A stretch of DNA of 64,000 nucleotides from Fuscovulum ytuae (GTDB lineage: Bacteria > Pseudomonadota > Alphaproteobacteria > Rhodobacterales > Rhodobacteraceae), in NCBI RefSeq assembly GCF_029953595.1, contig NZ_CP124535.1:1396001-1460000 (forward strand). The letters are read 5' to 3'. Of the stretch, positions 8,493-48,356 are shown piece by piece. The notes under the pieces are model-generated. The model saw only the letters and a list, made by a program, of their open reading frames with translations, was not told the origin of the DNA and made no database searches. Both the position numbers and the translations under genes were made by a program. Position 1 is the stretch's first letter. Every line of letters begins with the position of its first letter.

Positions 8493-9161
8493 ATGCAGGA
8501 CTATTCCGCCACGCTCTCTCGCGTCGAAGACTATTTCGACCGCAGCGCCACCAAGGTGTGGGAGCGCCTGACCTCTGACGCACCCGTCAGCCGCATCCGC
8601 CAGACCGTCCGCGAAGGCCGCGACCGGATGCGCGCCATCATGCTGTCGCGCCTGCCCGCCGATCTGAAGGGCGCGCGCGTTCTGGATGCGGGCTGCGGCA
8701 CGGGGCTGATGACGGCGGAACTTGCCGCGCGCGGCGCGGATGTGGTGGCAGTGGACATCTCGCCCCAGCTCATCGCCATTGCCGAACAACGGCTGACCGA
8801 AGACCTGCGCCCCCGCGTCACCTTCGCCGCTGGCGACATGACCAGCACCGCGCATGGCCATTTCGACTTTGTCATGGCGATGGACAGCCTGATCTACTAC
8901 CGCACCCCCGATATCGCGACGGCGCTGCGCAAGCTGGCCGACCGCACGGCGGGACATATCACCTTCACCGTGGCCCCGCGCACGCCCTTCCTGATGACCT
9001 TCTTCACCATCGGCAAGGCCTTCCCGCGCGCCGACCGTTCCCCCACCATGATCCCGCAAGATTGGCGCGCCATCGCCCGCCACACGGGCGGCGCGGTGGC
9101 CCGCGTCGAACGGGTCAGCCGCGGCTTCTACATTTCCGAATGTCTGGAGTATCGCGCATGA
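8493..9161 (+). CDS. bchM: Mg-protoporphyrin IX O-methyltransferase BchM
   Basis: This 222-aa SAM-dependent enzyme methylates the C13 propionate of Mg-protoporphyrin IX, the step after BchH and before the cyclase AcsF. The SAM-binding motif VLDAGCGTGLMTAELA sits at about residues 63-78, followed by VVAVDISPQLI. Length is typical. It starts 2 bp after bchL and its stop overlaps the lhaA start (ATGA at 9158-9161). Confidence 0.96.
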   Translation: MQDYSATLSRVEDYFDRSATKVWERLTSDAPVSRIRQTVREGRDRMRAIMLSRLPADLKGARVLDAGCGTGLMTAELAARGADVVAVDISPQLIAIAEQRLTEDLRPRVTFAAGDMTSTAHGHFDFVMAMDSLIYYRTPDIATALRKLADRTAGHITFTVAPRTPFLMTFFTIGKAFPRADRSPTMIPQDWRAIARHTGGAVARVERVSRGFYISECLEYRA

Positions 9162-46117: not shown

Positions 46118-47575
46118 TCATTGTAGGGGCTCAGCCAAGCCGTTTTGCGCGGTGGCACTGCCTTTGGAGGGGGAAGTAGCACTGCCCTGCCCCGTGTCGA
46201 CATCCTGCCGTCGCAATGGCAGCGCCAGAGCGAGGGCAAGGAGGAGAAGCCCCGCCTCCAGCCCGAAGACGGGCATGTAGGGTGATGCTGCGGCACCATG
46301 TGCAGCATCTGGGGCAAGAAGCATCACGTCGCGGATCACGCCGCCGAGGGCGACGGCGGCACCGGCGGCGGTGGTCTGCACCGCGCCCCAAGCGCCAAGC
46401 GAGAGGCCGATCTGTTCACGCGGCGCGGCGCGCATCGTGGCCGTCAATGTGCCATGTCCGAAGAGGCCTGCGCCGAAACCCGCGATCAGCGTGGCCGCAA
46501 TCAGGAGCGGTACGGTCAGCAGGGCCGCCGAGACCATGACCATCAGGAAAGCCGGAATGCCGATCAGGGCACCGAGGGAGGCCACGGTCATCGGCTGCCA
46601 GCCGTCGCGACCCAGCCACCGCGATGCCAGCGCAAAGCCCACAAGGCTGCCGCAGGCCAGAACCACGGTGAGGCGGGTGGTCTGTGCCACAGTCATGCCG
46701 AGAACCTGCCCACCGAAGGGTTCAAGCAAGACATCAGCCATGCCAAAGCCAGCCGTGCCGAGTGCGATGACGGCGAGCAGGCGCAGCATGCCGGGCTGTG
46801 CAGAGAGTTGCTTCATGGCCTTTGTGAAGGCGATCTCGCGCCGAGGTGCGTTGGCACGGTTGCGGTTGCGCGCTTCCTGCTGCCACATCGCGAGACCGTT
46901 AAGAACGATCGTGACGACGGCTGTGCCTTGGATCACCTGAATCAGACGGCCAGGCGTGTAGGTCGAGAGCAGCGCACCGTAGACGAGAGCGGCGAGGATC
47001 ATGCCGATGAGAAGCATGACATACATCAGGCCAACGACCTTTGGCTGATCCTCTTGCGGGACCAAGTCGGTGGCGAGCGCGAGGCCGACCGTCTGCACGA
47101 TGTGCATCCCTGCCCCGACCAGCAGGAAGGAGAGCGCCGCCGCGGAAAGCCCGATCCAGCGCGGGGCATCGACAGCCTCGCCATAGCCCGACAGAACCAG
47201 AAGGGCGAAGGGCATGATCGCGAAACCGCCAAACTGATACATCGTGCCCTTGAAAATCCATGGCAGGCGGCGCAGGCCGAGGGCTGATTTGAACGTATCG
47301 GATTTGAAGCCGATGAAGGCGCGGAAGGGCGCGAAGACCAGCGGCAAGGCCAGCATCAGCGCGACCAGCGTGGCCGGCACCTGCAGTTCGACGATCATCA
47401 CCCGATTCAGCGTGCCGACCATCAGGACAAGCGCCATGCCGACGGTCATCTGGAAGAGCGACAGGCGCAAGAGACGGGAAAGTGGCACTTCATCCGAGGC
47501 CGCATCGGCAAAGGGCAGGTATTGCGGTGCCATGGCCGCGAGACGCCCGAGTGCGAACCGTTTGTAGTCAAACAT
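46118..47575 (-). CDS. pucC: LH2 assembly protein PucC
   Basis: This 485-aa membrane protein has about twelve helices and is a paralogue of LhaA: LLRLSLFQMTVGMALVLMVGTLNRVMIVEL matches the LhaA segment closely. It is required for LH2 assembly. I took the ATG at 47575 (MFDYKRFALGRLAAMAPQYLPFADAAS); ATG at 47590 would add five residues, and neither has a strong ribosome site. A 10-bp hairpin separates it from pucA, so pucC should be expressed well below pucBA. Confidence 0.93.
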   Translation of the reverse strand: MFDYKRFALGRLAAMAPQYLPFADAASDEVPLSRLLRLSLFQMTVGMALVLMVGTLNRVMIVELQVPATLVALMLALPLVFAPFRAFIGFKSDTFKSALGLRRLPWIFKGTMYQFGGFAIMPFALLVLSGYGEAVDAPRWIGLSAAALSFLLVGAGMHIVQTVGLALATDLVPQEDQPKVVGLMYVMLLIGMILAALVYGALLSTYTPGRLIQVIQGTAVVTIVLNGLAMWQQEARNRNRANAPRREIAFTKAMKQLSAQPGMLRLLAVIALGTAGFGMADVLLEPFGGQVLGMTVAQTTRLTVVLACGSLVGFALASRWLGRDGWQPMTVASLGALIGIPAFLMVMVSAALLTVPLLIAATLIAGFGAGLFGHGTLTATMRAAPREQIGLSLGAWGAVQTTAAGAAVALGGVIRDVMLLAPDAAHGAAASPYMPVFGLEAGLLLLALALALPLRRQDVDTGQGSATSPSKGSATAQNGLAEPLQ

Positions 47576-47677
47576 CGCCGACACACCCATGTTGTGATCC
47601 GGCCGTCGTTCGCGTGCCGGGTGCGGGGGCAGGGTGAGGTCCGCCTGCCGGAGGACAGGGAACCCCACGCCTGATTG

Positions 47678-47716: not shown

Positions 47717-48028
47717 TCAGTCGAGAGCCGCCATTATTTCGGATGTCTGCAAAACGGCGTGGGCCGTCGTGCCATCCGGCATGGTGATCAGCACCTCTTG
47801 CGCACCACCGGGTATGTAGGCCGCTTTGGCGACCCCATCTTCCGGCAGCACGAGCGCGGCGGCAGCCGTGCCCGTCCCAAGGGGTTTGCCCGAAAGGAAA
47901 TCCGCCACCCATGACGTGTTGCTTAGGACGGCAACATGGACAGCGAAGGACCCAACGGCGACAGCTGAAAGGAACAGCGGAACTCCAACGGTCGGCTTGA
48001 CGACAAGCCACATCTTTGCGTTGTTCAT
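47717..48028 (-). CDS. pucA: LH2 antenna alpha polypeptide PucA with C-terminal extension and Phe44-Leu45
   Basis: This 103-aa protein has the LH2 alpha form MNNAKMWLVVKPTVGVPLF, a membrane helix and His31, which binds B850 bacteriochlorophyll (FAVHVAVLSNTSW). At 44-45 it has Phe-Leu (VADFLSGK) where the B850 type of C. sphaeroides has Tyr-Tyr. After residue 48 a 55-residue tail follows (PLGTGTAAAALVLPEDGVAKAAY and on), about twice the usual length; alpha extensions are known from puc2A of C. sphaeroides. It lies 10 bp behind pucB. Confidence 0.95.
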   Translation of the reverse strand: MNNAKMWLVVKPTVGVPLFLSAVAVGSFAVHVAVLSNTSWVADFLSGKPLGTGTAAAALVLPEDGVAKAAYIPGGAQEVLITMPDGTTAHAVLQTSEIMAALD

Positions 48029-48312: not shown

Positions 48313-48356
48313 TGTCATTTTTGAATTACATTTTCAACTGTAACAAAAACTTTACA
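48313..48356 (-). promoter_or_regulatory. Tandem PpsR/CrtJ boxes of the puc promoter
   Basis: TGTCATTTTTGAATTACA (48313-48330) and TGTAACAAAAACTTTACA (48339-48356) both fit TGT-N12-ACA. The 8-bp gap between them is the spacing known for cooperative CrtJ/PpsR binding. They lie 119-162 bp before the pucB start, in the AT-richest part of the region. Confidence 0.9.

Follow-up and report, generated by a model that had tools for sequence, protein, structure and literature searches.

We looked at the LH2 genes of Fuscovulum ytuae within the window, that is, the whole stretch of 64,000 nucleotides that was analysed. The genes follow the order pucB-pucA-pucC, with pucB upstream of pucA and pucC downstream, and a further gene comes after pucC (Table 1). 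They are located about 36 kb beyond the bch genes at the window start (bchF, bchN, bchB, bchH and bchM, the last one ending at 9161). PucA, whose translation begins MNNAKMWLVVKPTVGVPLFLSAVAVGSFAVHVAVLSNTSWVADFLSGKP, is an LH2 alpha chain, as it carries the antenna domain (PF00556) with the axial His31 and Trp40. The host is a Rhodobacteraceae/Paracoccaceae phototroph, probably with an aerobic anoxygenic lifestyle.

Table 1. Features of the puc locus, in window positions.
Feature	Positions	Strand	Basis
Uncharacterised puc-linked gene, 209 aa	45446..46075	-	Alpha/beta domain at the N-terminus; repeats with serines at the C-terminus
pucC, LH2 assembly protein, start codon provisional	46118..47593	-	PF03209, 470.9 bits
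pucA, LH2 alpha chain, 103 aa	47717..48028	-	ORF; PF00556, 49.9 bits (cut-off 23); alignment with structurally solved LH2 alpha chains
PucA residues 46-103, mostly extension: linker and possible beta hairpin around PDG	47720..47893	-	Conserved; AlphaFold2
Phe44-Leu45 codons, where B850 complexes have acetyl hydrogen-bond donors	47894..47899	-	Direct codon reading: Phe44, 47899-47897 (TTC); Leu45, 47896-47894 (CTT)
Val41 codon, site of the hydrogen-bonding Tyr41 in LH3	47906..47908	-	Translation and alignment
pucB, LH2 beta chain, 51 aa	48039..48194	-	ORF; PF00556, 41.6 bits
TGTN12ACA, PpsR/CrtJ-like operator, proximal copy	48313..48330		Pattern scan
TGTN12ACA, PpsR/CrtJ-like operator, distal copy	48339..48356		Pattern scan

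Residues 1-48 of PucA were aligned without gaps to the LH2 alpha chain of C. sphaeroides (7pbw), in which His31 and Trp40 (numbering from Met1) coincide and Ser27 is also shared. The C. sphaeroides chain differs in having Tyr44-Tyr45, Leu41 and a short C-terminus, whereas residues 41-45 of PucA are Val-Ala-Asp-Phe-Leu. The first-pass annotation had placed Phe44-Leu45 in a gap-free alignment anchored by H31 and W40, and this was borne out by the translation, the codons and the 7pbw alignment; it was silent on Ser27, on Val41 and on the extension of about 50 residues. When PucA was aligned with B850 and B820 alpha chains, F44-L45 was found as in the B800-820 LH3 of Rhodoblastus acidophilus 7050 (1ijd). 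However, that chain reads Tyr41-Ala-Ala-Phe44-Leu45, so PucA has the F44-L45 of an LH3 but Val in place of its Tyr41. Moreover, LH3 is a low-light alternative in Rhodoblastus acidophilus, whereas the window's LH2 is the only one. The nearest solved chain by sequence is that of PucD-LH2 from Rps. palustris (7ze3, 803 nm). It reads W40-V41-A42-K43-F44-M45 and shares with PucA V41, F44 and a residue 45 without donor, while differing by M45, K43 and a short C-terminus; PucD-LH2 is also one of several puc pairs in Rps. palustris and has a gamma ribbon. In the cryo-EM study of PucD-LH2, the two residues appear once as Phe44/Met45 and once in reversed order (PMC9618040); the chain itself reads F44-M45. 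Finally, the High-800/LH4-like LH2 of Roseobacter and Dinoroseobacter has V41, F44, L45 and a long tail like PucA (within a set of 80 named loci, all nine with Roseobacter in their title and the single Dinoroseobacter MAG). The alpha chains of these loci are 63-68% identical to PucA, with differences mostly in the tail, and in this comparison the spectra come from Roseobacter/Dinoroseobacter species while the window's LH2 is known here from its genes.

How these residues relate to the absorption band has been described in a 2022 cryo-EM study, in which two hydrogen bonds to the C3-acetyl groups go with a band at about 850 nm, one with about 825 nm and none with about 800 nm (PMC9618040). In the same study, the LH3 of Rbl. 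acidophilus, at about 820 nm, retains one hydrogen bond via Tyr41, and PucD-LH2, whose B850 pigments have none, shows one peak at 803 nm. The Tyr41 of LH3 and the Val of PucD are noted in a modelling study as well (PMC6988754). The claim that Phe44-Leu45 makes the antenna blue-shifted is therefore supported, since both acetyl hydrogen-bond donors (Tyr44 and Tyr/Trp45) are gone. With Val41, Phe44 and Leu45, PucA would have no donor left for the C3-acetyl groups of the B850 bacteriochlorophylls, so that the paired-pigment band should move up to the B800 band and give one peak at about 804-806 nm. According to a 2025 review, F44L45 is common to those aerobic phototrophs whose LH2 has one peak at about 800 nm, and its table places D. 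shibae at 804 nm and both R. litoralis and Roseicyclus mahoneyensis at 806 nm (PMC12654162). The same table has Roseicyclus elongatum at 802 nm with an 850 shoulder, which may count against such a single peak. The bands of D. shibae are given elsewhere as 804 and 868 nm (PMC10890935). For R. denitrificans, R. litoralis and D. shibae, residues and wavelength are tied at the genus level and through the review's statement. From the published rule and the spectra of the relatives' genera, we therefore predict a single near-infrared LH2 band at about 804-806 nm, of the 'High-800' or LH4-like type and without C3-acetyl donors at 41/44/45, with a probability of roughly 0.83. The link between F44L45 and a monomodal antenna is already in print (PMC12654162), and the V41/F44/L45 LH2 of this organism is an already known type. 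What changes is the predicted wavelength, which is hereby corrected: residue 41 must be considered together with 44-45 before a complex is named LH3.

The wavelength first proposed was that of an LH3-like B800-820/830 antenna, in which two bonds are lost and the band shifts only partially. This agrees with the 826-nm absorption of the C. sphaeroides double mutant Tyr44Phe/Tyr45Leu, in which Ser27 is retained and whose parent has Leu41, and with the natural F44-L45 LH3 at about 820 nm (PMC9618040). However, the one bond left in LH3 stems from Tyr41 (PMC9618040, PMC6988754), which is missing in PucA, and the genera whose loci have V41/F44/L45 include species at 804-806 nm (PMC12654162, PMC10890935). 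Since PucA has Val41 and not Tyr41, and both the rule, at about 800 nm, and the relatives' genera point to shorter wavelengths, we consider an LH3-like antenna unlikely. Ser27 nevertheless counts against a band at 804-806 nm, as it is present in PucA as well as in the 826-nm C. sphaeroides F44-L45 mutant. For the LH2 of R. denitrificans, Duquesne et al. in 2011 reportedly held the surroundings of the C13 keto group and an alpha-chain serine responsible. In C. sphaeroides, Ser27 bonds the C13 keto group (PMC9618040).

The band could instead be set mainly by such a bond between Ser27 and the C13 keto group, by Asp43 or by the C-terminal tail, and not by residues 41/44/45. The hydrogen-bond mutant of C. 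sphaeroides indeed shifts less than natural complexes (PMC9618040, PMC6988754), and in the family sample described below, 41 of the 42 chains with F44-L45 also have the tail and D43. This association, however, is that of one clade and not of independent events, and PucD-LH2 absorbs at 803 nm despite a 59-residue chain and Lys43 (PMC9618040); we regard such a control of the band as quite unlikely. It is very improbable, finally, that the LH2 genes are expressed too weakly for a visible band, leaving cells that look LH1-only. Such a case is reminiscent of Stagnihabitans lacustris, a Paracoccaceae phototroph with LH1 at 866 nm and without an LH2 peak, puc being unmentioned in the main text of the source, and two PpsR-like operators are present upstream of pucB. 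On the other hand, pucB, pucA and pucC are intact, and the alpha core has no amino-acid change relative to the three nearest relatives, at 0.30-0.39 synonymous differences per site, which argues for use.

The first-pass annotation also described this LH2 as the only one visible here. PF00556 gave four matches in the 4.19-Mb genome, which is rated 100% complete. These are the puc pair and the LH1 pair, the latter adjoining the two reaction-centre genes, and four matches were likewise obtained in 16 of 16 further genomes picked from the 80 named loci. No PucA relative was detected by tblastn (E up to 0.01) in a plasmid collection from which records near the window's genome were possibly excluded. 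The search for further puc copies thus returned none in the genome besides this pair, and the claim stands. PucA carries the F44-L45 motif and no second puc pair was found in the genome, so that this LH2 is probably an exclusive peripheral antenna of the High-800/LH4-like kind; the 2025 review describes the F44L45 LH4 of AAP as an exclusive peripheral antenna as well (PMC12654162).

The antenna had further been called constitutive. This is right for the spectral type, which is fixed as there is no second puc copy, but probably not for expression. Two TGTN12ACA sites, which we take to be bound by PpsR, start 136 and 162 bases upstream of pucB. In the window, 12 matches to this pattern were counted against 5.0 expected, a number reached in 1 of 100 shuffles. 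Upstream sequence of sufficient length was available for 77 tailed puc operons, counting that of the window; one or more sites are present in 72 of them and two or more in 63, whereas shuffling gives an expectation of 4.6 and 0.2, respectively. Since the 77 operons are related, these counts measure conservation and not independent events. Judging from the double PpsR-like operator, puc expression is probably repressible. Two more TGTN12ACA sites, at 309-326 and 453-470 on the plus strand, are located directly before bchF (529-1050), where the window's bch genes start.

To place the 41/44/45 state among relatives, we used a profile from nine relatives, which matched 55 of 394 family genomes; 60 places were read, and all of them except L172 and L184 yielded an alpha chain, 58 in total. 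F44-L45 was found in 42 of these 58 chains, always with Val41 (42/42), which indicates that it does not occur by chance. Tyr44-Leu45 was found in three chains, all with Tyr41, and the remaining 13 have YY, YH or FY at 44-45. In a second set, the 80 named loci, there were 69 with V41/F44-L45, five with F44-Ala45 and Phe41, and six with Tyr44-Leu45, although this set is biased because one of the two DNA patterns used for fetching includes D43-F44. The frequency of V41/F44-L45 in these samples makes the window an ordinary member of a large clade. Phe41 and Phe44-Ala45 replace Val41 and Phe44-Leu45 in the MAGs L087, L090, L091, L093 and L121.

A quick tree of 82 PucBAC sets requires at least nine changes of the 44-45 state and, counted separately, eight of Tyr44; as 31 of its 78 inner branches are open and two long branches meet, the exact number of changes is unsure. 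Because several changes of state are required, natural changes to Tyr44 seem, from the tree, to recur inside the F44-L45 clade. The Tyr44-Leu45 members within this clade are L081, L082, L089, L098, L104, L122 and L219. Tyr41 is present in four of these seven tree rows, and an independent-pairs test of the coupling of Tyr41 and Tyr44 was underpowered. The Tyr44 variants of the V41/F44/L45 clade provide a natural series with which the hydrogen-bond model of antenna tuning can be tested. Thetidibacter halocola (Tyr41, Tyr44) and Tateyamaria pelophila (Val41, Tyr44) are examples of such variants in cultivation.

The second unusual trait of PucA is its C-terminus, which makes it about 50 residues longer than a 54-residue chain of the C. 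sphaeroides type. In the family sample, a long tail with a PDG-like turn was found in 41 of 42 chains with F44-L45 and in 3 of 3 with Tyr44-Leu45, but in none of the 13 others, and Asp85-Gly86 is invariant in an alignment of 43 rows. Relative to the three nearest relatives, the tail shows 0.04-0.06 nonsynonymous versus 0.23-0.36 synonymous differences per site, and the nonsynonymous/synonymous ratio across 16 sequences reaches 0.44 in the tail against 0.05 in the core. By these substitution figures, the tail is constrained, though much less than the core. In the AlphaFold2 prediction, a transmembrane helix is followed by a loose linker and, at low confidence, by a hairpin (strands 77-82 and 88-93); as the pTM of the model is 0.27, we speak of a possible hairpin. 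In a profile search of structures (E up to 0.01), no solved chain covered the tail, the matches ending by profile position 59 of 115. Our guess is that the tail is a periplasmic element aiding packing or assembly. An origin from DUF6476 was considered and rejected: the tail alone matched PF20082 at E 0.18, below the cut-off, and when a profile of 43 tails was compared with one of 11 of 12 DUF6476 proteins, the probability came out at 6.9. Tails of another sort, made of Ala/Glu/Pro repeats and up to 195 residues long, unlike the PDG tail, were seen in the Tyr44-type relatives L178, L181, L182, L183 and L187.

We then considered the gene that follows pucC. Its protein has no match in Pfam or NCBIfam at E up to 1, and hence none to the YflT domain (PF11181). 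Three relatives compared with PF11181 gave 26.3 bits versus a cut-off of 26.2, an E of 0.27 and no match, respectively, and the one just over the cut-off is not beside LH2 genes. In the family sample (apparently the same draw of 394 genomes as for PucA), the gene was found in 44 of 45 genomes with a tailed PucA, the single miss being G353, whose alpha chain is split over two frames. It was also found in 2 of 10 genomes with an untailed PucA and, weakly, in 2 of 339 without PucA match. The profile of the gene matched 17 of 385 genomes sampled from the class, and in nine of them the match lay within 2.5 kb of a light-harvesting gene. Twelve class genomes gave four or more LHC matches or, in G524, two including an LH2-like chain, and 9 of these 12 have the gene; G516 and G553 had no match to the profile. 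In G087, outside the 17 matches, a similar protein adjoins pucBA, with a weak score (E 3e-4 in a small set, 0.011 for the best stretch).

The eight profile matches away from light-harvesting genes cover the first half of the profile only, but this is also true of several adjacent matches. On visual inspection, C-terminal stretches of the 'PLSS.FG...LS' kind were recognized in 7 of 7 adjacent proteins read besides the window's (repeated in six, single in L223) and were absent from the four non-adjacent proteins read. The repeats of the window family recur at a spacing of 26 residues and contain conserved serines, and at least two matches to the serine motif were found in 46 of 53 proteins, some of them outside the repeat region. 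AlphaFold2 predicted an alpha/beta domain for residues 1-110, as a block with pLDDT 85-97, and an unstructured region beyond residue 110 (pLDDT about 48).

Serine-bearing repeats are also found in the LH2 gamma polypeptide of Rps. palustris, an extended ribbon with six repeats whose serines ligate bacteriochlorophyll, and which is reported only from Rhodopseudomonas. The repeats measure 26 aa in the window family versus 16 aa in gamma, and the sequence differs too. Among solved structures, the gamma chain 7zcu_S was not found at E up to 10 by profiles of the family or of seven class-wide C-termini. When gamma was compared with 6466 ORFs, 95 of which belong to the pucC-downstream family, the family member L233 came first at E 0.0015 and the next, a non-family ORF, at 0.47. 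In three controls with unit-shuffled gamma, the only family member in any top five was at E 13. The likeness of the two proteins is, from these comparisons, suggestive but unproven. The pucC-downstream protein could be an accessory LH2 subunit across alphaproteobacterial families, with a folded N-terminal domain and a gamma-like serine-repeat ribbon that would wrap the ring and bind extra 800-nm bacteriochlorophylls or brace it, a proposal that we consider rather unlikely. If it were true, gamma-like ribbons would be common and not confined to Rhodopseudomonas, and they may supply part of the '800' in High-800 antennas. In any case, a protein family without Pfam or NCBIfam model that sits beside LH2 genes in several bacterial families may hold a missing antenna component. 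In L223 (genome G521), which belongs to another family, a V41/F44-L45 alpha chain with a PDG tail has a divergently oriented copy of this gene alongside.
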